Assembly (NCBI RefSeq): GCF_007559335.1
Contig: NZ_VMBG01000002.1
Span: 496,001-560,000 of the forward strand
DNA length: 64,000 nt
Direction of reading: 5' to 3'
From: Rariglobus hedericola
GTDB lineage: Bacteria; Verrucomicrobiota; Verrucomicrobiia; Opitutales; Opitutaceae
The notes under the pieces are model-generated. The model was given only the letters and a program-made list of their open reading frames with translations. It ran no database searches and was not told the DNA's origin. Of the stretch, positions 6,190-40,513 are shown piece by piece; position 1 is the stretch's first letter; every line of letters begins with the position of its first letter. The translations under genes and the position numbers were made by a program.

Positions 6190-7020
6190 ATGAAAAAGCA
6201 CTACACGGGGCATTGTTCGGATTGCGCACGGCGTAATTCTGCTGGGGCGTTTACGTTGATCGAGTTGCTTACGGTGATCGCGATCATCGGCATTCTGGCG
6301 GCGATTTTGTTTCCGGTGATCGGAAGTGTGCGGAAGGCCGCCAAGTATTCCACGAATGTGAGCAATGTGCGGCAATGGACCGTGGCTAACATGCTGCATA
6401 TGCAGGACCACAAGGGTTACATCCCTTGGCGCGGGCCAGCATTGGCCGGTGGTGAGTCGATTGTGGATTCGATGGAGGTGTTTTCCGCAGATATCCCCGT
6501 GTTGCCGTGGTGGAACGCACTGCCGCCCTATATCGGGCAGAAGACGTTGGCTGAGCTGCATGCCACGGGTGCACTGCCCAAGCTCGGTGATAACTCCATC
6601 TGGGTGTCTCCTCTGGCCGAAGATACCGTCGCGGCGAACCGCTGGGCGGCGTTTACCTGTTATGCCCCGCCGCGTTCATCTAATCGAGGGAGTGGCACCA
6701 CTTACTTCGTGGCTAATTCACGCACATTGGCGGAGCCCTCGCGCACTGTGATGTTTGCGGAAACGCCGCATTTTAGCCAAGCTCTGCAAAGCGGTGTGCC
6801 TTATGGTCATATCAATGAGATATCCAGCCCCGCCTCAACGGGACCTTACAACCGCAATGGAACCAGTGCTGAGCGAGGCGGCGAAAAGGGAAAAGCAGCC
6901 ATCGGTTTTTTTGATGGCAGCGTGCGGACGTTAACGGGTGCGCAGATTGTGACACACGGCGGGACGGCTGCGGAAAAAGGAGCCAATCCGGATCGGATCG
7001 TCTGGCGTCAGGATCTTTGA
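6190..7020 (+). CDS. GspG-like pseudopilin with H-X9-DG type C-terminus (cassette 1)
   Basis: A 276-residue protein. A short leader ending in SAGA precedes [20 protein letters not shown], the classic type IV prepilin/pseudopilin N-methylation helix with Glu at +5 if cleavage follows the Ala. The Ala at -1 in place of Gly is a common variant in this phylum. Near the end, [13 protein letters not shown] is the DG strand typical of the prepilin-type processing-associated H-X9-DG family. I use the ATG at 6190; a GTG nine bases upstream adds three residues. It lies 176 bases downstream of the small exported gene and may have its own promoter. The protein should be a major subunit of a pseudopilus in the inner membrane and periplasm. 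The corresponding gene in cassette 2 comes first, not last. Confidence 0.8.
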
Positions 7021-7114: not shown

Positions 7115-7792
7115 ATGGCCTTAACCTCTTCAGTTTTTTCTACTCCGATCTTGCGGGCGGCTTACGTGGATCGGCGTCTTGCGGCGCTTTATCCGGAGAC
7201 GCCGATTCCGCTGGATCATAGCAGTCCTTACACGCTGTTGATCGCGGTGCTGCTGTCGGCGCAGTGCACCGACAAGCGTGTGAATTTGCAGACGCCGGGG
7301 CTTTTCGCGAAGGCGGATAATCCGCGCGACATGGTGAAGTTGTCGGTTGCCGAGATCGACACGCATGTGCGGCCGTGCGGACTGGCTCCGCGGAAAGCGC
7401 AGGCCATCCGGCGGCTGTCGGAGTTGTTGCTCGAGAACCACGGCGGAGAAGTGCCGCACACGTTTGCGGAGTTGGAGGCGTTGCCGGGCGTGGGACACAA
7501 GACGGCTTCGGTGGTGATGTCGCAGGCGTTCGGAGTGCCGGCATTTCCGGTCGACACGCACATCCACCGGTTGGCTCAGCGGTGGAAACTTTCGAGCGGA
7601 AAAAATGTGGAGCAGACCGAGCGTGATTTGAAAAAGCTCTTCCCCGAGGGCCATTGGAACGCGCTTCATCTGCGAATCATTTACTATGGTCGCGAGCATT
7701 GCACGGCGCGCGGATGTGACGGCACGGTGTGTATGATTTGCAGGGAATTATTTCCGGAACGTCGCCGTGCGGTGCGCGTGAAGAAAACTTAA
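7115..7792 (+). CDS. nth: Endonuclease III (DNA glycosylase/AP lyase)
   Basis: A 225-residue base-excision repair enzyme that removes oxidised pyrimidines and cleaves the abasic site. SAQCTDKRVN marks the N-terminal HhH-GPD fold. The helix-hairpin-helix reads LPGVGHKTASVV, with the Schiff-base lysine at K129, and FPVDTHIHRL supplies the catalytic Asp D147; the 18-residue spacing matches the E. coli enzyme. Four cysteines follow at 196, 201, 206 and 209. Their spacing (C-x4-C-x4-C-x2-C) differs from the usual iron-sulfur loop C-x6-C-x2-C-x5-C. I use the ATG at 7115; an upstream GTG at 7091 would add eight residues. It stands alone between the pseudopilin and nuclease genes. Confidence 0.92.
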   Translation: MALTSSVFSTPILRAAYVDRRLAALYPETPIPLDHSSPYTLLIAVLLSAQCTDKRVNLQTPGLFAKADNPRDMVKLSVAEIDTHVRPCGLAPRKAQAIRRLSELLLENHGGEVPHTFAELEALPGVGHKTASVVMSQAFGVPAFPVDTHIHRLAQRWKLSSGKNVEQTERDLKKLFPEGHWNALHLRIIYYGREHCTARGCDGTVCMICRELFPERRRAVRVKKT

Positions 7793-26349: not shown

Positions 26350-27102
26350 TCAGCGAACGTGCTGAACACCCTTTTCGTCGGTCGTAATGGACTCCCGGAT
26401 ACGGCGGGCCACGATTCCCTTGGGATTGGGGTCCATCGGCGACGGGGCAATATCCACCAGGAAGATGCTGGTGCGGGAATCGGCGCCGACAGGATGGGCG
26501 CTGCTGCTTACGAGGAGCCAGCCATCAGCTTTTTCATCCGCGGCTACTTGAAGCCAAGCTTTGCGTGAGGTCGGATAGGGGGCGGTCTGATACTGGCCGG
26601 TCGGCAGCACCATCTTCGTGTCGGCGATATTTACAGCCAGACGGCGCTTGGAGAAATTGAACACGCGATAATTGTTGGCTGGGTGGGCTTCGAGAGATTG
26701 GTCGATGACGAGGGTGTTGTAGGCGAGTTCGGCTTCGGGCGGATTCTTGGCGATGAGTATGAGAAAGGGGCCGATTTTTTGAGCAGGCAGCTGAGCCTTG
26801 GCGACCGGCGTTTTGACCGGGGGCAGTTTGGGGTCTGCGTTGGGCACCTCGCGGTAGAAGACGACGTCCCGGTTTTTTGGTGCGGGGTAGAGCTGGGAGA
26901 ATGAGCCGGCGGCGGCGTTCAGTGATTCTTTCTTTTTTTCGACGTCGAAAAAGAAGGTTTCCACGCCGGCGATCGAGACGACGCGAAACTGCGGGGCGGG
27001 TGCTTCGGGCGCAGGCGAAGTTTGCGAGCGCAAGATTGCGGGCGCGACCAGTAGAAAAACGCAGGCGAGGACGCGGATCAGATGTCGTTGGGCGAGAGCC
27101 AT
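26350..27102 (-). CDS. Small exported protein of pseudopilin cassette 2
   Basis: A 250-residue protein with a signal peptide (MALAQRHLIRVLACVFLLVA). The ATG lies 25 bases inside the end of the large pseudopilin gene, exactly the overlap seen in cassette 1 (5213-5237), and both starts read MA-x-x-x-RHLI. The mature part has a Pro/Ala-rich segment, then beta-like strands (NRDVVFYREVPN, FLILIAKNPPE, NNYRVFNFSKRRLAVNIAD) and a C-terminal SIFLVDIAPSPMDP. No family is recognised. It probably partners the large pseudopilin in the envelope. The frame extends upstream to 27228, but that part lies within the other gene. Confidence 0.7.
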   Translation of the reverse strand: MALAQRHLIRVLACVFLLVAPAILRSQTSPAPEAPAPQFRVVSIAGVETFFFDVEKKKESLNAAAGSFSQLYPAPKNRDVVFYREVPNADPKLPPVKTPVAKAQLPAQKIGPFLILIAKNPPEAELAYNTLVIDQSLEAHPANNYRVFNFSKRRLAVNIADTKMVLPTGQYQTAPYPTSRKAWLQVAADEKADGWLLVSSSAHPVGADSRTSIFLVDIAPSPMDPNPKGIVARRIRESITTDEKGVQHVR

Positions 27103-30100
27103 CGGAAAGAAATGATTTTGAATTTGCGGCCGAAGGTTTGGCTGACGCTGCCGTTGCCCGGGCTGTCCCAAGCGTTCACGGAGCTCTCGACATATTCGGG
27201 GAGGCGCTGGACAACGGCTTCGCACCACGCGCGGCCGGTGATGTAATTGGGATCGGTGTCGGGCAGGACGGGATTCACGGTTTCGCCATAGGTGCGAATC
27301 GTAAAGGTGTCGGAGCGACCGGAGAGGCCTGCACCGATCTTGGAAAGGATGTCGGCCTGCGTGATGTATTTGGGAGCGAAGGAAGAACGGCCGCCGTAAG
27401 GCCGTTCTGCGGTGGTCGAGGTGTTGCGGCGCCCTTCGACGAGCGGGCGGCCGTAGTAGCCCATGGTGTATTGGCTTTCCTGGTTAACCCGGGTTCCGCT
27501 CGAGGTGATGAGCTGGTCCTGCGCCCAGAAGGTGTCGCCGGCGTCGTTGGTCGGAAAGCGGGTGGACGAGGACGTGGTGGTGGCGTCGATGGCGGCTTGA
27601 ATGGTGCCGCGATAGCTCTCGTCCTCGCCGGGGGTCCCGGAGTTATCCACGAGGCGGCGGTTCACGAAATCACCCAGAGAAACGAAGGGGCCGCGATTGC
27701 GGATCTCGGTGACGATGTCGCGGGCGAGCTGGGCGATTTCGTTTTCGTCGAGTGAGCGGTAGCCTTTCCAGGCATCATTGGGATTATCGTCGCCGTTGGG
27801 ACGGATGAAACGGGAGAAGGTTGTCTTGAGCGTATTGGTTGAGGGGGAACCCGGGTTTTCCGGATTGAACCTGAGCTGATTGCCACCACCCAGAATCGCC
27901 CGCCAAGCCTGTTCGGAGGTGGAGTTGATATTGAACGCGCCGGCAACCATCAGGCCGGCTGCAGAGCGGTCGGGGTTTTGAACATCGATCGCGGGGTTGT
28001 AGCGCAGATGGCGGGTGTTGGGAAAAGTCTGGGTCGCGGAGATGGCACCGGTGGCGGGGACGGTGGAGAAGTAGTAGCGGTCCCACAGGTTGCGGTTAAG
28101 CAGGTAGGAAATGTCGTAATAGCCGCGCATGTCGGAACCGAGTTTTCCGATGCCTTGGGCGCCGGTGCCGGAATCGACGCGGGCGATTTGCCAGCCGGGG
28201 GGCGTGGTCGAGAAACTGGCGCCGCCGGAAACGAGACGGAAATCGGCCAGGCTGTTGCCGACGGGGTAGGCTGGGTAGGCGCCAACGAGAGAAAGGTTCG
28301 CGTGTTGAAGCTGTCCGATGGATTGGAGCGGTTGGTTTTCGTAGGGGAATTCAAAAAGACCGACATCGACGGGAGCGCCGCCCAACCAGTCGTGACCTTG
28401 GCCGGCTGAAGTGCGGTCGCTATCCGGACCGGGACCGTTGATGAATTTCTGCCAAGGGAACGTGTAGAGTGGCTGACCGGCGGTGGCGGTGAAGAGGACG
28501 TTGTAGTTGTTGTCGCGGCGGGTGCGCCCGGAGCGGACGGCTCGCATGTTGCCCTGCGCGAGCCAGCGGGTCGCGAACATGTATTGGTTGGCATTGAGCT
28601 GTGCGTTGCTGCCTTGGCCGGAGAAGAGTGCCTGCGTTTGGAAAACATAGGTGGGCTCTGAGGCGATGGTGTCGTGGACAAGCGGGCCGGGCTCTTGAAA
28701 GGGCGGGGTGACGACCAGACCGGACCAATCCATATCCTGTGCGGTGCTATACCAGCGGCGGTTTGTGGCGGAGGGGTTGAAGAAGGCGCGATTGGCCGCA
28801 TCGTTGGCTCCGCCGGTCGTGGTCAGAGAGGAGAGGGAGCTGGGCTCACCGAGGTAGATATTGATGCCTCCGCCACCCAGGAAGCTGGCGCTCTGGGTTC
28901 CGGGACTTGCGGCGAGGCGATAGGAGAGGTTTTCCTCGCCTGCCAAGATGGTGATGTTCGTCGGGCTGCCGGCGGGACCGGTGCGGAAGGGAACGGAAAC
29001 GTAGGCGCCAGGCTCAGGCTCGATGTTTTCAAGTATGTTCTGCTGGTTATAAACCTGACCGCTCGAGGTGACAGGAAGGGAGAAAACAAGGCTTTGACCG
29101 GGTAGTATGTCGGGGCACTTCAGGCGAAAGCGGATAAAGTTACCGTTGTTGCCGTAGTGGGTGCGGAGGAAGTTGAAGCGACCTCGGGATGTCCAAGTGC
29201 CCGCGATATCGGCTTCGAGCTCAACGTTGACCTGTCCGTCGTGCGAAGGCTGGACACCCACTTCAAAATTGCTGCCGTCTGCCTGGGCGGCGGGAGCGCG
29301 GAGGGTGACATTGTAAGGGTTCCAGATGACGACAAGTGGATAGAGATTCATGTGAATCTCCACGCCGGGAGCGGGAGTAGCTACGGGTGCGGCGCGAAAG
29401 CCGAGCGAGAAATAAGTGATAACAGGAGCGGCGCCGACATGATCTGCGTCGGCCGGAACGGTGGTTTTGTTCGGTTTGTCGTAGGTGGGCAGGCGAACGG
29501 GGACACTCAGGGCGTTGGGATCTGAGGATGCGGTGGGCACGCGGGTTTGCGCAAAGGAGCGAAGATGCCGCCAAGTGGGGATCGCAAAGCCACCGCTGGC
29601 GACGAAGCCTCCGTTGTCTCCGGAATGGGGAACCCACATGCGGTTGAGGTCAGCTGTGGGATCGGTTGCTGCCGGGGTGTAGCTGGGATCGAGGAGAATG
29701 CTGAGGTCCCGTTTAAGGCCGCCGGCATTGGTGTCGGCGAGGACGGAAGTGGATTGGGTGGTGACGTCGTGGAAGCGGTATTTGAGCGCCGTCGACATCG
29801 CGGGCGCATTGGTGGAGGCCAGAGGGACTTGTTTGGGCGAGACGATCGGCGCGAGCGTGGCTGCGTCAGGACTGTAAAGTGTGTCGATGCGGGGCGAATT
29901 CAGGGCCGGCATTGAGGCCGTCCAACTTGGTGTGTCGGACGCCATCAGTTCGATGGCTGCGCGCGTGGAGTTGGAGAACGCGTTGCGTTGTTGCTCGAAC
30001 TTTTCGTCGTTAGTGAGGCTGATGTCCGTGCCGGCGAGAGGGAGGTTGACGCGAGCTTTCACGCCTTCGTCGCCAACCCACCATGCGTAACGGCCGACGG

Positions 30101-30887
30101 TGACAGGTGATCCGCTGCCCATGCCCGGGACGCTCGCGGCGGGCACGGTGATGTCCACGGCGGGGGCGACGACGTAATCAATGGGCTGCGATCCGTTGAG
30201 GGATGAGGTAACGCTGTTTTGTCCTACGAGAAGGCGGGCCGGGCGCGTGACGTTGCTGGCGTTGGTGATGGTGAGATTGGTCGCCAGGGCCGCGGTGGTC
30301 TCGGTGAGATTGGCGACGGTGCCGGCGGGTTTGTAGGGGATGCTGGCCGCTGCGGGAGCAGTGGTGATTTGGCCGAGTGCACCTACATCGCCGGAGGTCC
30401 GGCGTGGATCGAAGGGCGTGATTTCGTTTCCGCTCACGAGCCAGTTGAGCAGGCGTGCAGGAGATCCGGTATTGCGACGGGGATCTGCCGCGTTGGTGGT
30501 ATCCACCATGATGTTGGTGGGCGATGTAAGAGCGGTCGCGATGGATTCGGGCGTGGCGGTGTAGTCGCCGGCAACGGAGCTGCCGTATACGCCGACCCAC
30601 TGGGAATTGTTCTGGCCCGGTGTGTTTTCCAGGTCGGCGCGGGCGGTGGTGCGTTGGTCGGGGCCGGCGTATTTCTGGAGCTGGCCGACGGCGATGTTGA
30701 GCGCCATGAGTGCGTTCTGGCGGGCTTGCGAGAGCTGCTGGTTGTTGGACGCAACCTGGGTTTCCACGCGCGTGAGCGACGCGAGCGAAACGAGCAGCAG
30801 GACGAGAAAGGCCAGGAGGGTGATCGTGATGAGCAGCGCAAAGCCGCGCTCACGACGGGCGACGGAATTTGAGGGGATGCGATTCAT
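27078..30887 (-). CDS. Large GspK-like pseudopilin of cassette 2 (Verru_Chthon cassette A-like)
   Basis: A 1269-residue protein starting MNRIPSNSVARRERG, then FALLITITLLAFLVLLLVSL, a prepilin-type leader and helix without Glu at +5, as in GspK. The next block, TRVETQVASNNQQLSQARQN, nearly repeats that of the 1899-5237 protein. The body is a large Ser/Thr/Asn-rich beta region. A GspK-like stretch (IAQLARDIVTEIRNRGPF, then LGDFVNRRL) comes near the end, and the protein finishes with FGRKFKIISFRWLSPNDI. The ATG at 30887 lies 35 bases after the pseudopilin stop; the open frame continues upstream inside that gene and is ignored. Its place in a glycan operon suggests a surface or pseudopilus component that touches or secretes glycan-active proteins. 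Confidence 0.75.
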   Translation of the reverse strand: MNRIPSNSVARRERGFALLITITLLAFLVLLLVSLASLTRVETQVASNNQQLSQARQNALMALNIAVGQLQKYAGPDQRTTARADLENTPGQNNSQWVGVYGSSVAGDYTATPESIATALTSPTNIMVDTTNAADPRRNTGSPARLLNWLVSGNEITPFDPRRTSGDVGALGQITTAPAAASIPYKPAGTVANLTETTAALATNLTITNASNVTRPARLLVGQNSVTSSLNGSQPIDYVVAPAVDITVPAASVPGMGSGSPVTVGRYAWWVGDEGVKARVNLPLAGTDISLTNDEKFEQQRNAFSNSTRAAIELMASDTPSWTASMPALNSPRIDTLYSPDAATLAPIVSPKQVPLASTNAPAMSTALKYRFHDVTTQSTSVLADTNAGGLKRDLSILLDPSYTPAATDPTADLNRMWVPHSGDNGGFVASGGFAIPTWRHLRSFAQTRVPTASSDPNALSVPVRLPTYDKPNKTTVPADADHVGAAPVITYFSLGFRAAPVATPAPGVEIHMNLYPLVVIWNPYNVTLRAPAAQADGSNFEVGVQPSHDGQVNVELEADIAGTWTSRGRFNFLRTHYGNNGNFIRFRLKCPDILPGQSLVFSLPVTSSGQVYNQQNILENIEPEPGAYVSVPFRTGPAGSPTNITILAGEENLSYRLAASPGTQSASFLGGGGINIYLGEPSSLSSLTTTGGANDAANRAFFNPSATNRRWYSTAQDMDWSGLVVTPPFQEPGPLVHDTIASEPTYVFQTQALFSGQGSNAQLNANQYMFATRWLAQGNMRAVRSGRTRRDNNYNVLFTATAGQPLYTFPWQKFINGPGPDSDRTSAGQGHDWLGGAPVDVGLFEFPYENQPLQSIGQLQHANLSLVGAYPAYPVGNSLADFRLVSGGASFSTTPPGWQIARVDSGTGAQGIGKLGSDMRGYYDISYLLNRNLWDRYYFSTVPATGAISATQTFPNTRHLRYNPAIDVQNPDRSAAGLMVAGAFNINSTSEQAWRAILGGGNQLRFNPENPGSPSTNTLKTTFSRFIRPNGDDNPNDAWKGYRSLDENEIAQLARDIVTEIRNRGPFVSLGDFVNRRLVDNSGTPGEDESYRGTIQAAIDATTTSSSTRFPTNDAGDTFWAQDQLITSSGTRVNQESQYTMGYYGRPLVEGRRNTSTTAERPYGGRSSFAPKYITQADILSKIGAGLSGRSDTFTIRTYGETVNPVLPDTDPNYITGRAWCEAVVQRLPEYVESSVNAWDSPGNGSVSQTFGRKFKIISFRWLSPNDI

Positions 30888-30922
30888 TACGGGCGGACTT
30901 TGGGGTGACGTCTGGCGCGGTC

Positions 30923-31639
30923 TTAGAGGACGGGGGCGGGGGCGTAAAAATCCACGCCGGCGCTCTCGAAGTAGGAAACGAGAGCGGGTCCTTTCACCCA
31001 GCGCACGGAACCATCGGCGTGGGCGGCGTTCTGGCCCTGCACCGAGCCGGTGACAGGTTCGGGATCGGAGTGGCCGTAGCTGCGACCGGCGGACCGGTAG
31101 GTGAGACAAGTCCAGAGAGGGAAATTATCTGGCACGTTGCTGCGCTGTTTGAGCACGTTTGGGGTGCCGGCCCCGAAACCGGCAACGATCGCAGCTTTGA
31201 GCGGTAGATTTCCGAAGTAGGAATAAGTAACGTAATTCGCGGTCGTGCCAGTAGCGGCGTAGCCCGGGGTCTCGGTGCTGCGCCACGCTTTTAGGGGGCC
31301 GGGGCAGAACATGATTCCATCCTTCGGCGGGTTGCCGAGATACGGGCTGAAAGCGTCCCAGTCGGCGGAAATAAATGCGTGCGGAAACGGGTAAATCACA
31401 CTGCCGGCGGGCCGCAGAGGGATGGAGCCGCGATTATCGTTGGCGTAGGTCAGCGTGCCCACGGCGAGCTGATGGAGATTGCTGGCGCACGTGGATTTGG
31501 CGGCCGACTCCTTCACCTTGCCGACGACGGGGATGAGAATCGATGCGAGGATGCCGATGATGGCGATGACGGTAAGTAACTCGATGAGCGTGAAACCTGC
31601 ACGGGCGGACGGGGTGGTGGGGTAGTTGTGGCGTTTCAT
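30923..31639 (-). CDS. GspG-like pseudopilin with H-X9-DG type C-terminus (cassette 2)
   Basis: A 238-residue pseudopilin. The leader MKRHNYPTTPSARAG precedes [20 protein letters not shown], with canonical Gly at -1 and Glu at +5. Near the end, NAAHADGSVRWVKG is the DG strand of the H-X9-DG pseudopilin class. It is the first gene of the cassette here, whereas its counterpart at 6190-7020 is the last. It is 78 bases downstream of the GH16 gene, with a hairpin in between. It should be processed by a prepilin peptidase (not in the window) and form a periplasmic pseudopilus. Start: ATG 31639, giving a short positive leader. Confidence 0.85.
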   Translation of the reverse strand: MKRHNYPTTPSARAGFTLIELLTVIAIIGILASILIPVVGKVKESAAKSTCASNLHQLAVGTLTYANDNRGSIPLRPAGSVIYPFPHAFISADWDAFSPYLGNPPKDGIMFCPGPLKAWRSTETPGYAATGTTANYVTYSYFGNLPLKAAIVAGFGAGTPNVLKQRSNVPDNFPLWTCLTYRSAGRSYGHSDPEPVTGSVQGQNAAHADGSVRWVKGPALVSYFESAGVDFYAPAPVL

Positions 31640-31659
31640 GACGGGGGTAGAGGGGTGGG

Positions 31660-31689
31660 GCCGCAGGAGGAATTTAACCCACCTGCGGC
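31660..31689 (-). promoter_or_regulatory. Intercistronic hairpin between GH16 and the pseudopilin gene
   Basis: GCCGCAGG (31660-31667) and CCTGCGGC (31682-31689) form a perfect 8-bp stem with a 14-nt loop in the 78-base gap. No T run follows in the direction of transcription, so it is more likely an RNA stability or attenuation element than a full terminator. Confidence 0.4.
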
Positions 31690-31717
31690 GAGTGCTCAAA
31701 CGAAGGATATCGGTTCT

Positions 31718-34162
31718 TTAGAGGCGGCTCTTGAGCTGCCAGGCGCGGGTGTAGTCTACATCCATGACAGCAGGGAGGTTGGCATCATCGACATTCTTGG
31801 TGGCCCAGCCGCCCATCTGGACGTTGAACTTCAAGTAGGCGGGGACGTTGCTGACGCGGTCGTTGATCTGCTCGGCGGTTTTCTTGCCGTCGACATACCA
31901 GGTGAGTTTACCCGGTTCCCAGAGGAGGCCAAAGACGTGGTAACCATCGGGCGTGGGGCCGTAGTAAATTTGCGAGGTGCCCCATTGTTTGTGGTCGGAG
32001 CCGTAGCCGTCCCAGTGGGTGGCGACGCTGTTGCGGCCGGGGCCCCACTCGGAGAGGATTTCCATGATGTCGATTTCCATGGCGCCCTTGCCGGTGTCGC
32101 GGCGGCGCCAGGTGTCGAGGCCGGAGGCGGCTCCACGGTCGGGCATCATCCAATAGGCGGGCCAGAGACCGCGGACGTAGGGGACTTTGATGCGTGCTTC
32201 GAAGTATCCATAAAGTTGCGACCACTTGTTGTAGCTTTGGATGAGGCCGGAGCTGTAGGCACGGGTGCCGAGCTTGGGGTCGTTGTTTTCGTGGCCGAAC
32301 TTCTTCTCGACTTTGAATGTGGCGACACCGTTGGCGACCGTGACGTTTTCCGGGACGTAATGTTGCAACTGGCCGGGCTGCGGGCCGTCCCACGGGAAGC
32401 GCGGGGTCCAGAGTTTTTCGTTCAGCTGGGTGCCGTCGAAGTTTTCATCGAGGGTCTTGACCCATTCGCCGGGGAGATCGGCGGGCGGGCGCTGGCCGAG
32501 CCAGGCGGGGAGAACAGCCGGTGTGTTGCGATCCTCGGGCTTGGTGAAGGAAAGTTTGTTGGCGGCGTCGGATGGGCTGCCAGAGGCCTTCAAGTTGTCG
32601 AGGACGAGCGTGGTGGCGGTCTTCGGGCGGACGATGAAGATCTGGATCGCGGAGATTCGCGCGGGATTGAGCGGGAAGGCGGGGGCGCCGTTCTGCTGGC
32701 CAAAGGTGAGCTTGAGGATCTTGGTTTCGCCGGGATTGAAGACGGTGTTTTCGGTGTTCCACGGTTCGGCTTTCCAGTCGCCGGGGTTGTCGGCGCGGAG
32801 GAATACGGTGACCTTTTTGTCGTTGGCGTTGGTGACGCTCACTTCGATGGCGCTGAAGGCGGAGAGATTCCAGCCGCCCTTCGGAATGGGGAACTGGATG
32901 TTGGGATAGTTGGAGCCGGCCTCGAAGGTGACCTTGACTTTGCCGGCTTCGATGACGGCGGAGGAATCGGAGTGGTTGAAGCCGGCGAGTTTGTTTTTCG
33001 CGAGGTCGAGGAGTTCACCGCCGATGGAAGGCGAGAACGTGGCGTCCTGACCGGCGGCGACGGGTGTGGCCGAAGCGGTCTCCACGGAGGCAGTGGCGGA
33101 GGCGGTGCCGAACGGGGCGAGGTTGCTGATGAGGAGGGCCGCGTCGGCCTTGGGCTTCTCGACGTAAAGCTTGAGGACGTTCACGCGCGAGGAGTCGAGG
33201 GCGTATCCGGTCTTTCCATACGACTGGCCGAAGGTGACCTTGAGGGTCTTGGTTTCCCCGGGGGCGATCCAGACGTTGCCGGTGTTCCAGGGATTCTGGC
33301 GCCAGTCGCCGGGGTTGCCGGCGCGGAGGGCGACGTTGACGCGGGACTGGCCGGCGTTGGTGACGGTGGCCTGCACGCCGGCGAAACCGGTGAGGTTGAG
33401 CTGTCCGCCGGTGAGCGGGTAGTCGAAGCCGGGATAGTCACCGCCATTGGGGAAGGTGAGCTTGAGGGCGGGGGCGCCGGAGGACGCGTCGAATGCGAGG
33501 GCCGGGGCCTGCTCGGTCTTGATGGAGGCGATGTTGGCGGCGGTGGGCGTGAAGATCACGGCGCCGGCGGGAACCGCGGCGGACGTGGCCGCGGGTGAGG
33601 TCGAGGTGGTGGCGGCAGGGGCGACCGCCGGCGTGCCGGTGCCGAAGGGGGCGATGTTTTTAACGAGGATGACTGCGTCGGCCTTGGGCTTTTCGACGAA
33701 GAGCTTGAGGTTGCTCACGCGAGCGGCATCGAGGGCGTATCCGGCGCGTCCATACGACTGGCCGAAGGTGACCTTGACGATCTTGGTTTCGCCGGCGGCG
33801 ATCCAGACGTTGTTGGTGTTCCAAGGTTGTTTGCGCCAGTCGCCGGGGTTGTCGGCGCGGAGGTTCACGTTGAGGCGGGACGGGCCGGTGTTGGTGATCT
33901 CGGCCTGGACGCCGGCGAAGGCGGAGAGGTTGGCGGTGCCGCCGGCGAGGGGCAGGTCAAGGCCCGGGTAATCGCCGCCATTGGGGAAGGACACTTTGAG
34001 TGCGGAACCCTCCAGCGAGAGGACGGGGTCCTTCTCGGTTTTGATGGTGGCGATGCTGGCGGCCGTGGGCGTGAACAGATCGGAGGCGGCGGTCGCGGAA
34101 AGGGTGGCTGCCAGGGTAAGCAAGGCGGCGCAGAACGGACGGAAGGAGGTAAAGCGTTTCAT
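31718..34162 (-). CDS. Secreted GH16 endo-beta-glucanase with three N-terminal binding-like repeats
   Basis: An 814-residue exported protein. After a signal peptide (to about residue 26) come three similar beta-sandwich repeats (about 28-175, 200-348, 373-525) sharing PNGGDYPG, LRADNPGDWR, PWNT, GETK and FGQSYG segments, with Ala/Thr-rich linkers. They look like carbohydrate-binding modules. The catalytic GH16 domain (about 560-814) has the motif EIDIMEI with nucleophile E696, D698 and acid/base E701; the extra Met (beta-bulge) is typical of laminarinase-type enzymes. It should cut beta-1,3- or mixed-linkage glucan outside the cell. The gene lies 18 bases after GH1 in the same operon. Confidence 0.9.
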   Translation of the reverse strand: MKRFTSFRPFCAALLTLAATLSATAASDLFTPTAASIATIKTEKDPVLSLEGSALKVSFPNGGDYPGLDLPLAGGTANLSAFAGVQAEITNTGPSRLNVNLRADNPGDWRKQPWNTNNVWIAAGETKIVKVTFGQSYGRAGYALDAARVSNLKLFVEKPKADAVILVKNIAPFGTGTPAVAPAATTSTSPAATSAAVPAGAVIFTPTAANIASIKTEQAPALAFDASSGAPALKLTFPNGGDYPGFDYPLTGGQLNLTGFAGVQATVTNAGQSRVNVALRAGNPGDWRQNPWNTGNVWIAPGETKTLKVTFGQSYGKTGYALDSSRVNVLKLYVEKPKADAALLISNLAPFGTASATASVETASATPVAAGQDATFSPSIGGELLDLAKNKLAGFNHSDSSAVIEAGKVKVTFEAGSNYPNIQFPIPKGGWNLSAFSAIEVSVTNANDKKVTVFLRADNPGDWKAEPWNTENTVFNPGETKILKLTFGQQNGAPAFPLNPARISAIQIFIVRPKTATTLVLDNLKASGSPSDAANKLSFTKPEDRNTPAVLPAWLGQRPPADLPGEWVKTLDENFDGTQLNEKLWTPRFPWDGPQPGQLQHYVPENVTVANGVATFKVEKKFGHENNDPKLGTRAYSSGLIQSYNKWSQLYGYFEARIKVPYVRGLWPAYWMMPDRGAASGLDTWRRRDTGKGAMEIDIMEILSEWGPGRNSVATHWDGYGSDHKQWGTSQIYYGPTPDGYHVFGLLWEPGKLTWYVDGKKTAEQINDRVSNVPAYLKFNVQMGGWATKNVDDANLPAVMDVDYTRAWQLKSRL

Positions 34163-34180: not shown

Positions 34181-35620
34181 TTAGACGGAAGCGGTCGTGA
34201 GCGAGGCGGTTTCGCCGACGTTGGACGCGGTCGTAAAAGGGGTGGCGGAGGAAGGCGTGTTGTAAAGGTTGGCGCCGTTGGTGCGGATGACCTCGCGATA
34301 CCAGTGGGCCGAGTCTTTGAGTGTGCGCACTTGGGTCGCGTAGTCGACGTGAACGAGACCGAAGCGGTGCTTGTAGCCCTCGGCCCATTCGAAGTTGTCC
34401 ATGATCGACCAATGGAAATAGCCCTGCACGTCCACGCCCTCGTCGATGGCCTTGTCGAGACCGAGGAGATAGCGGTGGAGGAAGTCGATGCGGTGCGAAT
34501 CGTGGACCTTGCCATCGAGCGACACCCAGTCGGGCATGGTGAGACCGTTTTCGGTGATGACGATGGGGAGCTTGTAACGCTCGGCGAGGAACTTGGTGCC
34601 CCAGTAAAGTGCGCTGTCGGTGCGCTTCCACAGAAAGTGCGTGTGGGGGAATCCTGGATCGAGCTGGACGGTCTCGGGCTCGCCATTGGCGCCGGCTTTG
34701 GTGGGGGTGGCGTGGTAGATATTGCAGCCGTAGAAATCGAGCGGCTGCTTGATGATGTCGAAATCGGCATCCTTGAACTTCGGGGCGTTTTTGCCGTAGG
34801 CCTTCAAGCCCTGCTCGGGATAGGAGCCGAGCACGGGGGCGTCGCCCCACCAGCGGTTGTTCCAGCAATGGCCGTCCCACACGGTGTCCATCGCGGCGTT
34901 GGCTGCGGCGACATCGGCGGCGGAGTCTGTAACCGGATAGTTGATACAACCGACGGGGGCCCAGCCGATGACCGGCGTGGTCTTGGCGCGGGCGCGGATG
35001 GTCTGCACCGAGCGACCATGGGCGAGCAAGGCGTGGTGGCCGGCTTGCAAGACCTCGTGGAGGCCTAGCTTGAGGCCGGGTGCGTGTTCACCGTGGAGAT
35101 GGCCGAGACCGATGAAGCATTGCGGCTCGTTGAGGGTGATCCAGTGCGAGACGCGGTCGGAGAGACGGTCGACGACGACGGCGGTGTAGTCGGCAAACCA
35201 CTGGGCGCTGTCGGGATTCAGCCAGCCGCCGCGCATGAAAAGATCGTAGGGGAAATCCCAGTGAAACAGTGTAACCCAAGGTTGGATACGCGCGGCGAGC
35301 AGCTCGTCGACGAGGCGATCGTAAAAAGCGAGGCCGGCTTCGTTGACTTTGCCGGTGCCGCTGGGCAGGACGCGGGGCCAGGAAACGGAGAGGCGGTAGG
35401 CCTGCAGGCCCATCTGCGACATCATGGCGACGTCGTCCTTGTAACGATTGTAGTGGTCGCACGCGACGTCGCCGGTGTGGCCTTCCCAGATGCGGCCCTT
35501 TTGGTGTGAGACCATGTCCCAGACGGACGCGCCTTTGCCGTCGGACTGCCAGGCGCCTTCGATTTGGTAGGAGGCCGCGGCGGCGCCCCAGGTGAAGTTG
35601 GATGGGAAGGATGAACTCAT
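34181..35620 (-). CDS. GH1 beta-glucosidase
   Basis: A 479-residue cytoplasmic enzyme that should release glucose from beta-gluco-oligosaccharides. It starts MSSSFPSNFTWGAAAASYQI and keeps the full GH1 set: acid/base E165 in TLNEPQ, nucleophile E357 in ITENG, the Gln/His sugar contacts (SYQIEGAW, FHWDFPY) and the C-terminal MDNFEWAEGYKHRFG. No signal peptide. It is the first gene of the leftward operon. The ATG at 35620 is supported by homology; the frame remains open to 35806, covering the promoter region. A second GH1, fused to an AraC domain, is divergent from it and closely similar in its catalytic part. Confidence 0.93.
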   Translation of the reverse strand: MSSSFPSNFTWGAAAASYQIEGAWQSDGKGASVWDMVSHQKGRIWEGHTGDVACDHYNRYKDDVAMMSQMGLQAYRLSVSWPRVLPSGTGKVNEAGLAFYDRLVDELLAARIQPWVTLFHWDFPYDLFMRGGWLNPDSAQWFADYTAVVVDRLSDRVSHWITLNEPQCFIGLGHLHGEHAPGLKLGLHEVLQAGHHALLAHGRSVQTIRARAKTTPVIGWAPVGCINYPVTDSAADVAAANAAMDTVWDGHCWNNRWWGDAPVLGSYPEQGLKAYGKNAPKFKDADFDIIKQPLDFYGCNIYHATPTKAGANGEPETVQLDPGFPHTHFLWKRTDSALYWGTKFLAERYKLPIVITENGLTMPDWVSLDGKVHDSHRIDFLHRYLLGLDKAIDEGVDVQGYFHWSIMDNFEWAEGYKHRFGLVHVDYATQVRTLKDSAHWYREVIRTNGANLYNTPSSATPFTTASNVGETASLTTASV

Positions 35621-35730
35621 GGGAAAGTAAATGGGGGCGGCGGCAGCCGGGGAGGGGAAGAGAGCGGGGTGGCTCGGGCATGAACATAGCACCAATGAAG
35701 GAATAGGGGTTAGCCGTCTGCTGATGCAGA

Positions 35731-35750
35731 ATGTGTCATTTGCCGATGCG
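35731..35750 (+). promoter_or_regulatory. Shared 20-bp motif in the GH1 / GH1-AraC promoter
   Basis: ATGTGTCATTTGCCGATGCG lies in the 254-base gap between the divergent GH1 operon and the GH1-AraC gene. Two close relatives lie between the divergent PEP-CTERM genes at 38653-38672 and 38749-38768. The common core is ATGTGTC-A/T-T-C/T-T-N-C-C/T-GA. It is a candidate binding site for the AraC-type regulator. Confidence 0.5.
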
Positions 35751-35874
35751 TTTGCGCCGGCAATGAGGGAAGATTTCCTCGCTTTTAGTCGGGTTTTGAC
35801 CATCAAGGCCGGGGAACTCGCTGATCGCTTACCTCTTTCGCGGCAGTGCAGTTTCTTGCGAATCCTTACCCTGC

Positions 35875-37653
35875 ATGAGTTTTCCGGATAAATTTTCCTG
35901 GGGCGCGGTGACGTCGGCCTATCAAATCGAAGGTGCGTGGGAGGCCGACGGCAAAGGTCCCTCGGTGTGGGATATGTTCACGCGTCGCCGCGGACATGTG
36001 TGGGACGGCCAGACCGGCCAGGTGGCGTGCGACCACTACAATCACTACAAAGGGGACGTGGCCCTCATGGCGCAAATGGGGCTCAACGCCTACCGCTTTT
36101 CGGTGTGCTGGCCGCGTGTGATGCCGTCGGGCACGGGCGCGGTGAACGAGGCGGGCCTGGCCTTCTATGACCGGTTGGTGGATGAGTTGCTCGCCGCCGG
36201 GGTGCAACCGTGGGTGACGCTGTTTCACTGGGATTTTCCCTATCAACTTTTTTTGCGCGGCGGCTGGCTGAATCCGGAGAGCCCAGCCTGGTTTGCCAAA
36301 TACACGGCGGCGGTCGTGGACCGGCTGTCGGACCGGGTGACGCATTGGGTGACCCTCAACGAGCCGCAATGCTTCATTGGCCTCGGTCACGCGAGTGGCG
36401 AGCATGCTCCCGGTTTAAAACTCGATCTGCCCGAGGTGCTGCTCGCGGGACATCATGCCTTGCTGGCGCACGGGCGTGCGGTGGAAGTGATCCGCGAGCG
36501 TGCGAAAAAGAAACCGATCGTGGGTTGGTCGCCGGCGGGCACGATTTATTATCCGGCGACGGAAAGCTCGGAGGATATCGCGGCCGCGCGCGTCGCGACC
36601 AACTCGGTGTGGCCCGACGGTGTGTGGAACAACCGCTGGTGGGGCGATCCCGTGGTGTTTGGTAATTATCCGGAGGAAGGCTTGCGCGTTTACGGCGCGG
36701 CGGCACCGCGTGCGACGAAGGCGGATTTCAAAATCATCCAGCAGCCGATTGATTTTTACGGGTGCAATATTTTCCAAGGCGAGGCGATCAAGGCGGGTCC
36801 GGGTGGCGCGCCCACGCTGGCACCGCTGCCGCCCGGGCATCCGCGCACGCTCTATCTGTGGAGCCAGACGCCCGAGGCGCTTTATTGGGGGCCGAAATTT
36901 TTGGCGGAAACTTACAAGCTGCCGATCGTCATCACCGAGTGCGGCATGTCGAATTGCGACATGGTGGGCCATGACGGACGCGTGCATGACCAGGTGCGAA
37001 TCGAGTTCATGATCAGCTACCTGTTGCAACTGCGCCGGGCGCTCGCCGAGGGCATCGACGTGCGCGGTTATTTCAACTGGTCGCTGATGGATAATTTCGA
37101 ATGGCAGGAAGGTTATAAACACCGCTTCGGCCTGATCCATGTCGATTACGCGACGCAGCGGCGCACGTTGAAAGATTCGGCGCATTGGTTCCGCGAGGTC
37201 ATCGTGTCGAATGGTGCGGCGCTGGAAAAATACGTGCCGGACGCAGGCCCGCCGCAGCCCTACGTGATCCAGGAAACCATGCGTTATGTCGCCGCGCATG
37301 TAGGCGAGTCATTCAACATCAAAGATCTTGCCGCGCACCTACGCTGCCATCCGGATTTCCTGAGCCGCAAATTCAAACAGCAAGTGGGTGAAGACCTGAG
37401 TGCGTATATCCGGCGCGTTCGTATCGATCATGCGCGCGAGCTCTTGAAGCAGTCCGGCTCGCTGATCGATGACGTGGCGGAGAAGTCGGGCTTCTCCGAT
37501 CGCATTCATTTCACGAAGGTGTTTCGCCGCGTCACGGGGCAGACGCCCGGACAGTTTCAACGGCAATTCCGCGCGGGTGTGGGCGAACGGGCCGGCGTGG
37601 TCGCGGACCCGCGTTTGAAGTCGAAGAACCCGCGCTCGGCCACGGGTGCGTGA
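35875..37653 (+). CDS. GH1 glycosidase fused to an AraC-type DNA-binding domain
   Basis: A 592-residue protein. Residues 1-455 are a complete GH1 domain: SAYQIEGAW, FHWDFPY, acid/base E163 in TLNEPQ, nucleophile E355 in ITECG (the usual Asn after it is C356), and MDNFEWQEGYKHRFG. Residues 463-565 are an AraC-type double helix-turn-helix: IKDLAAHLRCHPDFLSRKFK, then VAEKSGFSDRIHFTKVF and RVTGQTPGQF. There is no break in the frame between them, and the two domains have the usual lengths. I infer a sugar-sensing regulator in which the glycosidase domain binds, and perhaps hydrolyses, a beta-glucoside and the AraC part controls the divergent operon. Whether it still cleaves is uncertain. No signal peptide; cytoplasmic. 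Confidence 0.92.
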   Translation: MSFPDKFSWGAVTSAYQIEGAWEADGKGPSVWDMFTRRRGHVWDGQTGQVACDHYNHYKGDVALMAQMGLNAYRFSVCWPRVMPSGTGAVNEAGLAFYDRLVDELLAAGVQPWVTLFHWDFPYQLFLRGGWLNPESPAWFAKYTAAVVDRLSDRVTHWVTLNEPQCFIGLGHASGEHAPGLKLDLPEVLLAGHHALLAHGRAVEVIRERAKKKPIVGWSPAGTIYYPATESSEDIAAARVATNSVWPDGVWNNRWWGDPVVFGNYPEEGLRVYGAAAPRATKADFKIIQQPIDFYGCNIFQGEAIKAGPGGAPTLAPLPPGHPRTLYLWSQTPEALYWGPKFLAETYKLPIVITECGMSNCDMVGHDGRVHDQVRIEFMISYLLQLRRALAEGIDVRGYFNWSLMDNFEWQEGYKHRFGLIHVDYATQRRTLKDSAHWFREVIVSNGAALEKYVPDAGPPQPYVIQETMRYVAAHVGESFNIKDLAAHLRCHPDFLSRKFKQQVGEDLSAYIRRVRIDHARELLKQSGSLIDDVAEKSGFSDRIHFTKVFRRVTGQTPGQFQRQFRAGVGERAGVVADPRLKSKNPRSATGA

Positions 37654-37765: not shown

Positions 37766-38578
37766 TTAGCGACGACGACGGGAGAGCACGAAACCGAGAG
37801 CACCAAGACCGCCGAGGAGCGCGTAGGTGGACGGTTCGGGAACGGCGGAAGTGGTGAGGACGAGATTATCAACAGAGGTCATCACATTATTTCCGCCTGT
37901 GCCTAAGCGTAGAGCTACTGAAGTGCCGCCAAAAGTCGGAGTGGAATCCGAGATCGTTCCAAATGCTCCGATGATGCTAGAGTTGGACGAGTCTAGAATT
38001 GAGCCAGTGAAACCAATGCTAGTGCCTGCTACGGCATTAACATTTAAGCTTATGGTGTAAAAGGTGGTCGAGTTGAAGATGGCCGAGTTCAGGGATGCAG
38101 AGTTTAATGTAACGGTCGATCCAACCTGAGCTCCTACCGAGGTGCCATCGGTCTTGGCTCCTTTGAAAATTCTAAAGTCTGCAGTGCTAACTCCACCGGT
38201 CGTATTAAGACGAAATACGGCCAGGTATCCCACGCCTCCTGTGATGTTTGTTATGAAACCCACGCTCGTGCCGCCAAAGGAGGAGGGCATCACATCAAAT
38301 TTCGCATCAAGTTTGAGTGAAAAACTGTCGGTGTTTTGCGCAGTGAATGAGGGGTTGTAAACGGCAATGCCTGACAGTGATCCGGTGCTTGTCGTGGTCT
38401 CGAGTATACCGTTGTTCACGGTCATATTCGTGGGGTTCGAGGTTTCCGTGAAATTGTCTGCGTATTGGGTTCCGGAAAAGTCGATGGTTGTGGTTATTGC
38501 TTTAAGCGGCGTCAGGCTTAGCGCGGAGGTGACGACTGCAATGGGCACGAACGCAAGGCGGGGTAGGTTGATTTTCAT
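37766..38578 (-). CDS. PEP-CTERM protein, paralogue of the 15453-16226 protein
   Basis: A 270-residue exported protein. The signal peptide is MKINLPRLAFVPIAVVTSAL and so on, the body is beta-rich, and the C-terminus is AVPEPSTYALLGGLGALGFV with RRRR, an exosortase target. Segments GFITNITGGVGYLAVFRL and ADFRIFKG match the 15453-16226 protein, so both likely have the same LamG-like sandwich. Base use is less GC-rich than in neighbours. It is divergent from another PEP-CTERM gene; the gap between them carries two copies of the motif found at the beta-glucan operon promoter. A role in binding a glycan at the surface would fit but is not shown. Confidence 0.82.
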   Translation of the reverse strand: MKINLPRLAFVPIAVVTSALSLTPLKAITTTIDFSGTQYADNFTETSNPTNMTVNNGILETTTSTGSLSGIAVYNPSFTAQNTDSFSLKLDAKFDVMPSSFGGTSVGFITNITGGVGYLAVFRLNTTGGVSTADFRIFKGAKTDGTSVGAQVGSTVTLNSASLNSAIFNSTTFYTISLNVNAVAGTSIGFTGSILDSSNSSIIGAFGTISDSTPTFGGTSVALRLGTGGNNVMTSVDNLVLTTSAVPEPSTYALLGGLGALGFVLSRRRR

Positions 38579-38652
38579 AAACTGTATGGGGTGGGCTTAA
38601 GCAAAATTTAGCACACAGCGGCTTGGAGCGGTTAACACGGATCTGATATAAG

Positions 38653-38672
38653 ATGTGTCATCTCCTGATTCG
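38653..38672 (+). promoter_or_regulatory. Second copy of the shared 20-bp motif
   Basis: ATGTGTCATCTCCTGATTCG matches the 35731-35750 site at 16 of 20 positions. It lies 75 bases upstream of the reverse-strand PEP-CTERM start and 150 bases upstream of the forward one. Confidence 0.5.
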
Positions 38673-38748: not shown

Positions 38749-38768
38749 AATCTCGGGAAAAGACACAT
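38749..38768 (-). promoter_or_regulatory. Third copy of the shared motif, opposite orientation
   Basis: On the reverse strand it reads ATGTGTCTTTTCCCGAGATT; the first seven bases and several later ones agree with the other copies. It lies 54 bases before the ATG at 38822, pointing toward the 38653 copy, so each divergent gene has its own nearby site. Confidence 0.4.
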
Positions 38769-38821
38769 TTCAGATCAGCACTAGCCTAACTGCTGACGTG
38801 GCTTTCGCGTATGATGCAGCG

Positions 38822-40513
38822 ATGAACCCCAGCTCCCGCCTTTGTCGTTCCCGCGTATCACGCGTTGTTTTGTCGACCACCCTGCTGCTTTCCCTCGCAT
38901 CCGTTTCCCGCGCTGCCGACGGCACGTGGGCCACGACGAGCACCGGCTTGCTTTGGAGCACTGCGGGCAACTGGTCCGGCTCGGTGATCGCCGATGGCAG
39001 CGGGTTTACCGCCAACTTCAACAACGTGGATATCCCTGCGACGCCCGTGACGACCGTGAATTTGGATTCCACGCGCACGATCGGCAATCTGGTCTTTGGC
39101 GATACCAACACGGCCACGGCGGGAAGCTGGGTTTTGTCGAATAACGGCAATGCTGCGAACGCGCTGACCCTCGCCGGCACAACGCCTACGATTACGGTTG
39201 ATACGCTTGGCACGGGAGCCACCGCCACCATTAGCGCGGTGATTGCCGGAAGCAGTGGTCTGACCAAGGCTGGTCTCGGCACCTTGGTCCTGTCCGGTGC
39301 CAACACCTTCTCGGGGACGACCAACGTGAACGCGGGCACCTTGCGTCTGGCCAGTGACACGGCGATCGGAAATGCCGACATCGCGAGCGGAGCGGTTTTA
39401 AACGTAGACTCGGTGTCCGTGGTTTATTCGGGCAACACTTCGGGCGCGGGCAGAATCACCAAGACCAACAGCGGCAGCACTCTCACCTTATTGGGTAATG
39501 GCCTTCACTCGGGCGGAACGACCTTGACCGATGGACGACTTATTTTGGGGACGGGAACCAACAACGGTCTTGGCACGGGCACGTTTACGCTGAGCCGAGG
39601 TGCGGTGCAGTCTTTGGACAACAGCACCCGCACCATTACCAATGCTCTGTCGATGGGCAGCAATGAGCTGTCTTTTGGCGCGCTTCAGGGTGCCTCCACC
39701 GGCTTGGGCGACCTGAATTTCGCGTCCACGACCGGCACCACTATCGGAGGCTCCAAGATTTGGACGGTTACCAACTCGACGACCGCGACCTTTGCCAACA
39801 ATTGGAGCGGCAATACCGGCTGGAGCATCACCAAGGCGGGCACTGGCACGCTGGTGTTCAGCGGCAACATGAACACGTCCGGCGCGCTTACCGTGAACGC
39901 TGGCGCAATGACGCTCAATGGTCTGACTAACAGTTACACCGGTGTGACCACTGTCAGCGGCGGCATTTTATTGATCAACGGTGCCAAGACGGGAACGGGC
40001 GCGGTCACGATCACCTCCGGCACGTTTGGCGGCAACGGCACGATTGCCGGCGCGGCCACCGCTGCTTCGGGTTCTTTCTTGTCCCCGGGCGCGAGCAGCG
40101 GTGTCGCCGGCACTCTTACGTTTACCAGCACGCTCGACATCTCCGGACTCGCCTCGGGCACCGGCGGTTTGCTCTTCAACCTCGGCTCCGTCGGAAGCAG
40201 CGACAAGATCGCGTTGTCGAGCGGCGCGCTCACCATCGGCACCGGCGCGCTGGATTGGAATGACTTCAGCTTTACTACGCTTTCGGGCTACGGCGTCGGC
40301 ACCTACACGCTGTTTTCGACGACCACTTCGATTGTCGGCACGATGGGTTCAAATCTTACCGGCACGGTTGGCGGGCTGAACGGCACGCTTTCGATTTCGG
40401 GCAACGACATCGTGCTCACCGTTTCCGCCATTCCCGAGCCGTCGACCTACGCGCTGATCGGCGGCGTGTTGTCTCTGGGCCTGGCGGCAACCCTGCGTCG
40501 CAAGCGTCTTTAA
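38822..40513 (+). CDS. Autotransporter-associated beta-strand repeat protein with PEP-CTERM
   Basis: A 563-residue exported protein. After a signal peptide (VVLSTTLLLSLASVSRAAD) come repeats of the autotransporter-associated beta-strand type: GLTKAGLGTLVLSGANTFSG, then TTNVNAGTLRL, and later ITKAGTGTLVFSGN with LTVNAGAMTLNG. These predict a beta-helix. The C-terminus is AIPEPSTYALIGGVL and an RRKR tail, an exosortase signal, so it is a surface or matrix protein rather than a true autotransporter; no beta-barrel is present. ATG 38822 is chosen for the signal peptide; a GTG at 38798 adds eight residues. Divergent from 37766-38578 with shared motif copies between. Confidence 0.85.
   Translation: MNPSSRLCRSRVSRVVLSTTLLLSLASVSRAADGTWATTSTGLLWSTAGNWSGSVIADGSGFTANFNNVDIPATPVTTVNLDSTRTIGNLVFGDTNTATAGSWVLSNNGNAANALTLAGTTPTITVDTLGTGATATISAVIAGSSGLTKAGLGTLVLSGANTFSGTTNVNAGTLRLASDTAIGNADIASGAVLNVDSVSVVYSGNTSGAGRITKTNSGSTLTLLGNGLHSGGTTLTDGRLILGTGTNNGLGTGTFTLSRGAVQSLDNSTRTITNALSMGSNELSFGALQGASTGLGDLNFASTTGTTIGGSKIWTVTNSTTATFANNWSGNTGWSITKAGTGTLVFSGNMNTSGALTVNAGAMTLNGLTNSYTGVTTVSGGILLINGAKTGTGAVTITSGTFGGNGTIAGAATAASGSFLSPGASSGVAGTLTFTSTLDISGLASGTGGLLFNLGSVGSSDKIALSSGALTIGTGALDWNDFSFTTLSGYGVGTYTLFSTTTSIVGTMGSNLTGTVGGLNGTLSISGNDIVLTVSAIPEPSTYALIGGVLSLGLAATLRRKRL

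Follow-up and report, generated by a model that had tools for sequence, protein, structure and literature searches.

A GH1 beta-glucosidase domain fused to an AraC-type DNA-binding domain, a candidate beta-glucoside sensor of Verrucomicrobiota

The window, a 64,000-nucleotide stretch of the Rariglobus hedericola genome (NZ_VMBG01000002.1, positions 496,001 to 560,000), contains a forward-strand gene (35875..37653) that joins a GH1 domain to an AraC-type DNA-binding domain. It encodes 592 amino acids in one frame with no internal stops. Pfam assigns residues 2-447 to Glyco_hydro_1 (PF00232; 469.7 bits), 485-564 to HTH_18 (PF12833; 74.7 bits) and 525-562 to HTH_AraC (PF00165); these GH1 and HTH domains are the only ones found, and an anti-sigma domain is absent. 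The GH1 domain, the proposed sensor, covers amino acids 1-447 (35875..37215, forward strand), and its fold matches that of GH1 glucosidases. As the Pfam match starts at residue 2, there is no room for a signal peptide. The double helix-turn-helix (HTH) spans amino acids 461-566 (37255..37572, forward strand), with seven helices predicted in 463-566. The AlphaFold model of the fusion is of moderate quality (pLDDT 69.1), and we do not draw on its domain arrangement. A preliminary description of this DNA had read the gene as one frame holding a full GH1 domain and a complete AraC double HTH, with both catalytic glutamates (Glu163 and Glu355) present; the open reading frame, the Pfam matches and the translation agree with it.

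The fusion is divergent from a stand-alone GH1 beta-glucosidase gene (34181..35620, reverse strand), as had also been described; the two GH1 sequences are 67% identical and their start codons are separated by 254 bp. We place the start of the stand-alone gene at the ATG at 35620 (the open reading frame list starts it at 35806). Behind it on the same strand lie a GH16 endo-beta-glucanase-like gene (31718..34162; PF00722) and a gene for a prepilin-like protein with an N-terminal methylation motif (30923..31699; PF07963). These are followed by a 1343-aa open reading frame (27078-31109) that has no Pfam match and is prepilin-like at its N-terminus; its relatives occur in the genome G035 and beside both GH16 operons of the genome G074. 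On the other side of the fusion are genes for a PEP-CTERM protein (37766..38578, reverse strand; PF07589) and a PATR-repeat (autotransporter-type) protein (38822..40513, forward strand; PF12951).

We searched for other GH1-AraC fusions, a check suggested by the preliminary description, and found 24 distinct fusions in 16 genomes after removing five duplicates. Among 252 genomes of the family, seven have a match to the HTH query at E <=1e-22 and five of these carry a fusion; four belong to the window's genus and the fifth to a different one. The four other family fusions are full-length, stop-free and 81-89% identical to that of the window. In a sample of 372 genomes from the order, 11 have an HTH match at E <=1e-24 and all 11 carry a fusion, while a sample of 387 genomes from the phylum, scored at three candidates per genome, has fusions in five. 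Named genomes were scanned as well, and eight of the 11 loci obtained have a fusion. These come from a Rariglobus MAG, two other Opitutaceae MAGs, G035 (a MAG labelled Verrucomicrobiota), Cerasicoccus frondis and three MAGs that are more distant, among them one with the label Verrucomicrobiales and one with the label Methylacidiphilaceae. Up to four paralogues of the fusion occur in one genome. The GH1-AraC fusion is thus present in several families of one Verrucomicrobiota order, and its recurrence as a full-length, stop-free gene in four other family genomes and in more distant genomes of the order excludes a missed frameshift or assembly artefact. Spread by plasmids was also considered and set aside; a tblastn search of plasmids gave GH1 matches in 105 records, all below 60% identity. 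In one record the joined pieces cover 80% or more of the query, and the 10 matches listed are to the GH1 part only. A search of open-licence papers found no published description of glycoside hydrolase-AraC fusions, nor a GH39-AraC analogue; as far as such literature searches reach, the GH1-AraC fusion is undescribed.

In a maximum likelihood tree of 78 GH1 domains, all 24 fusions form one clade (100/99 support), a grouping present in each of 200 bootstrap trees. The fetched loci include 17 stand-alone GH1s, 14 of which form a neighbouring clade (95/89); support for the forks joining the fusions with stand-alone GH1s is moderate (80/89 and 89/58). A stand-alone GH1 is present in 16/24 fetched fusion loci. 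The HTH of the fusion is most similar to that of PocR-domain AraC regulators (54-60% identity). A single duplication and a single fusion, with paralogues arising later, make the simplest history: the GH1 domain would derive from a duplicated beta-glucosidase and would have been joined once, in a common ancestor of the sampled lineages, to an AraC double HTH of the PocR-regulator kind.

The active site of the fusion differs from that of an ordinary beta-glucosidase at a position overlooked in the preliminary description. We matched residue numbers to Thermotoga BglA (TmBglA) and Halothermothrix BglA (HoBGLA) through the N-x-Y and KRFGL motifs rather than by structural superposition. Both catalytic residues are in place, the acid/base Glu163 (36361..36363, forward strand) and the nucleophile Glu355, which is followed by Cys356 (36937..36942, forward strand; cysteine codon TGC at 36940-36942). 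The GH1 active-site tyrosine that positions the nucleophile (Y295 in TmBglA, Y296 in HoBGLA) is missing and replaced by Phe300 (36772..36774, forward strand); the divergent stand-alone GH1 has kept it. Position 300 is Phe in 21, Ser in two and Tyr in one of the 24 fusions, whereas it is Tyr in 54/54 other GH1s. The one exception, the distant fusion L140, is changed instead at Asn298 and Asn356. Since the tree suggests that the tyrosine was lost in a few ancestral events, 23/24 should not be read as a count of independent losses. Cys356 had been singled out as the one striking change in an otherwise intact active site, and neither part of that claim stands. Asn occupies this position in the other four family fusions and Ser in L140, and we dismiss Cys356 as a hallmark because it occurs in 0/23 other distinct fusions and is private to the window's genome; the clade-wide change is that of Tyr300 to Phe or Ser.

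Changes at other active-site positions are scattered. Phe418 is Tyr in 7/24 fusions and Phe in 52/52 other GH1s, and one fusion (L165) is changed at both Trp402 and Glu409. Over 13 active-site positions, 37/312 cells are changed in the fusions (23 of them at position 300) vs 0/210 in the 17 stand-alone GH1s from the fetched loci (Fisher p 2.4e-9, although the cells are not independent). Conserved positions outside the active site also evolve faster in the fusions (109/2040 vs 27/1402 cells). The effect of the main substitution may be gauged from engineered GH1 enzymes, in which, according to the available text of two reports, Tyr to Phe lowers kcat 45-85-fold (PMC9113129, PMC4803828). For TmBglA Y295F, the kcat on pNPG falls 85-fold (PMC9113129); for HoBGLA Y296F acting on cellobiose, it is 8.5 per s compared to 387 per s without the change, and Km goes up from 10 to 20 mM (PMC4803828). 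The same source gives a tenfold lower kcat and an approximately threefold lower Km for HoBGLA F417Y (PMC4803828). These are laboratory mutants made for transglycosylation, not regulators, but they share with the fusions the change of Tyr to Phe, and with it comes slow turnover at a cellobiose Km that, in HoBGLA, is merely doubled. By analogy, loss of the Tyr300 hydroxyl would keep the glycone pocket and slow turnover, so that the GH1 domain may hold its ligand rather than quickly destroy it.

Both catalytic glutamates are kept in 22/24 fusions, so turnover may still matter. One could go further and regard the fusion as a bifunctional trigger enzyme, in which the GH1 domain works as a beta-glucosidase besides regulating, and turnover is part of its output. 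The retained glutamates would fit this, as would the score of the fusion against TIGR03356, the NCBIfam GH1 beta-glucosidase (BGL) equivalog, which it passes with 515.3 bits against a cut-off of 478.5. We nevertheless consider it unlikely, since Tyr300 is lost in 23/24 fusions and most fetched fusion loci already have a stand-alone GH1. Moreover, the nucleophile has become Gln in one fusion (L166) and the acid/base residue Asp in another (L144), indicating that fast hydrolysis is not under selection's upkeep. The nucleophile-Gln fusion (L166, in G294) lies near a stand-alone GH1 whose active-site residues are the usual ones (region L166 3787-11264), and within 18 kb there are six operator-like sites with scores of at least 22.

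Aligning the five family intergenic regions between the fusion and the stand-alone GH1 revealed a conserved 39-bp block with two 17-bp direct repeats 22 bp apart, a repeat match equalled in 3/500 column shuffles. In the window, this candidate operator (O1; 35709..35747, forward strand) lies upstream of the GH1-GH16 genes. Searched as a pattern with up to three mismatches, it matches seven times across the 252 family genomes, each time at the fusion locus of one of the five genomes that carry a fusion. Five of these matches follow from how the pattern was made, while the other two, at window 38753-38789 and G074:C53:3312-3348, are independent. As a control, the reversed pattern gave no matches in these 252 genomes. 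A weight matrix built from the five sites found further sites scoring well above shuffled sequence. In the window, the matrix and a profile place two more candidate operators, O2 (38631..38669, forward strand) upstream of the PEP-CTERM gene and O3 (38752..38790, reverse strand) upstream of the PATR-repeat gene.

The profile was built from 13 sites found partly by its own first version, and most of its best matches are therefore training sites. At E <0.006 it has 16 matches in the 252 family genomes (13 training sites and three new ones), all in the five fusion genomes. At E <=0.5 the five fusion genomes have 26 matches, 13 being training sites, vs 35 in 29 of the 247 others, and none of these 35 covers the whole site. 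The best match outside the fusion genomes, in G240 (E 0.0086), lies inside an open reading frame and is probably due to chance. Outside the family, 11 fusion loci include a stand-alone GH1, and the orientation of the best upstream match is the same in all 11. Its score exceeds those of all 34 control GH1s at nine of the loci (p 7e-7), whereas at the other two it does not exceed that of the best controls. An earlier version of this comparison set 13 loci (including L142 and L143, which have no fusion) against 39 controls, which counted two pairs of duplicates and also three GH1s from the window's genome; the recount used 34. Genome-wide, operator matches at E <=0.05 occur in 4/8 non-family fusion genomes and 0/8 comparison genomes, which suggests that the operator has drifted in part of the order.

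The spacing between the operator and the promoter is close to fixed. O1 ends 20 bp from a -10 element (TATGTT; 35683..35688, reverse strand) of the GH1-GH16 genes, and the -10 elements that we assign to O2 and O3 are TAAATT (38605-38610) and TATGAT (38810-38815). Taking every site scoring above 8 in 21 family loci, TANNNT occurs 19-20 bp from the operator end in 33/37 cases on the target side vs 0/37 on the other side, and in 26/28 of the sites scoring at least 20. For 19 non-family fusion loci the figures are 31/38 vs 1/38, with 16/16 at a score of at least 20, and in three PocR-AraC loci 3/9 vs 0/9. An earlier test on hand-picked sites gave 26/27 in the family and 23/25 elsewhere (of 26 sites, those with enough flank); this set omitted weaker sites and one at L071 198-236, which has no -10. 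Two weak sites elsewhere in the window (6452-6490 and 7316-7354) also have no -10 and are probably chance matches. Setting the first T of the -10 element at -12 puts the operator at about -71 to -33, in place of the -35 element.

The regulator AraC of Escherichia coli binds direct-repeat half-sites about two helical turns apart, the inner one overlapping the -35 region. The sequences around the fusion contain a candidate tandem direct-repeat operator of this AraC/XylS type overlapping the -35 region, and the fusion shares with AraC its C-terminal double HTH. They differ in the sensor, which is a cupin in AraC and a GH1 TIM barrel in the fusion, and in the 22-bp spacing found here.

The genes behind the candidate sites indicate a predicted regulon wider than the divergent operon. 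Sites stand upstream of GH1-GH16 genes in all five family fusion genomes, although the contigs of G117 and G150 break off inside the GH1 gene or shortly beyond it, so that a GH16 gene behind it is not visible. G074 has further candidate sites before a second GH1-GH16 operon and a GH5 gene, while G117 has sites before four GH16 genes on three contigs, one of these sites being without a -10 at the fixed offset. In G117:C14, the site adjoins the gene of a small signal-peptide-like protein, with a GH5 frame behind that gene. Other genes behind sites encode PEP-CTERM, PATR-repeat and two prepilin proteins, and two large proteins without enzymatic Pfam domains. The two prepilin-gene sites are next to PocR-AraC genes or to neighbours of such genes, and may be those of the PocR-AraC proteins. 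Two sites are at contig ends (L072 340 and L116), and for two others (L122 and L071 13335) no annotated target is named.

The PATR-repeat gene is listed from 38798, but its -10 element points to the ATG at 38822 (region 38810-38824). Transcription is predicted to start approximately at this ATG, and the mRNA may be leaderless; the first ATG of the corresponding gene is at about +3 in G117, while G074 has none before about +44. Outside the window, the window's genome also has a gene for a 1095-aa fibronectin-type-III protein (L120 1950-5332; G000:C2 near 638300) with an operator-like site and a -10 upstream.

Related sites are not confined to fusion loci. At the PocR-AraC locus of the window's genome (L069, on G000:C3), there are four weaker sites with a -10, scoring 13.7-20.7. 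PocR-AraC regulators with related sites near themselves or their neighbours were seen at L069 (4429-10897) and L141 (4180-4218), and also at L142 and L143 (4316-4354 and 6299-6582). The PocR-domain regulators of these four loci resemble the fusion in their HTH and in having similar operator sites nearby, and differ from it in carrying a PocR sensor instead of a GH1 domain. The motif is thus not unique to the fusion, and some of the weaker sites may be those of PocR-AraC proteins; the HTH type common to both seems to read such operators, hinting at sensor-domain swapping on one type of HTH.

It follows that the operator might belong to another AraC protein, either the PocR type or the AraC beside the second GH1 operon of G074, with the fusion not its main reader. 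Relatives of the PocR type pass E 1e-22 in the window's genome, G074 and G117, and the second-operon AraC has relatives of at least 70% in the window's genome, G117 and G150. However, G035 has both a fusion and sites, yet no close homologue of either candidate. In addition, each of the five family fusion genomes has its strongest site in the intergenic region of the fusion itself, although the motif was seeded from these five sites. The PocR-locus sites of the window's genome and G074 score lower (13.6-22.1 against 48.7-54.0). We therefore consider it very unlikely that another AraC is the main reader; the fusion is the best candidate reader of the strong sites, with cross-talk possible.

Taken together, we consider it probable that the fusion is a one-component activator that reads cytoplasmic beta-glucosides through a crippled glycosidase. 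This reading starts from what the sequences contain (the fusion, the lost tyrosine, the repeats, their rigid spacing to the -10 element and the families of the target genes) and would add to it DNA binding, a ligand, slow turnover and activation. The ligand would most likely be a short beta-glucoside, such as a laminari- or cello-oligosaccharide that the GH16 and GH5 enzymes set free. Once occupied, the fusion would bind the two direct repeats, which end at about -33, and activate promoters in which the operator stands in for the -35 element. Its targets would include the GH1-GH16 genes together with genes for surface proteins nearby, so that beta-glucan use would come under positive feedback. 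That the GH1 domain is instead a ligand-free scaffold, leaving the regulator constitutive or responsive to protein-protein contact with the paralogous GH1, is highly improbable: catalytic residues do vary in several fusions, but Gln17, His118, Trp119, Asn162 and Trp410 are unchanged in all 24, and a mere scaffold would need none of them. The earlier suggestion that an enzyme was copied and turned into a sensor largely stands, given a fusion clade near the GH1s of the same loci, active-site changes concentrated in the fusions and a candidate operator in the divergent intergenic region; support for the joining forks of the tree is moderate, and the view of Cys356 needs the correction made above. 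More tentatively, the fusions could form a family of intracellular regulators with a self-resetting sensor, in which, owing to the change of Tyr to Phe, a slowly hydrolysed ligand or glycosyl-enzyme intermediate holds the activator ON and turnover times the beta-glucan regulon, an idea that we find possible but doubtful.

A precedent is RsgI6 of Clostridium thermocellum, whose GH10 domain, in the available text of the report, has very low activity but keeps its sugar binding (PMC4711584). Like the proposed role of the fusion, this is a weakly active glycoside hydrolase serving as a sugar sensor for polysaccharidase genes (PMC4711584). As described there, however, the RsgI6 domain is a GH10 and the extracytoplasmic module of an anti-sigma factor, whereas the fusion has a GH1 domain and no anti-sigma domain.

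The fusion would be a clear case of an enzyme becoming the sensor of a transcription factor, with the close stand-alone paralogue often still at the same locus. It combines a crippling mutation of known kinetics with a predicted operator and regulon, and together with the paralogue these make the transition from enzyme to sensor testable in vitro by reverting a single residue. The fusion may also offer a natural scaffold for glucoside biosensors. For these Verrucomicrobiota, the operator and its targets provide a candidate regulatory code for the use of beta-glucan, probably laminarin.
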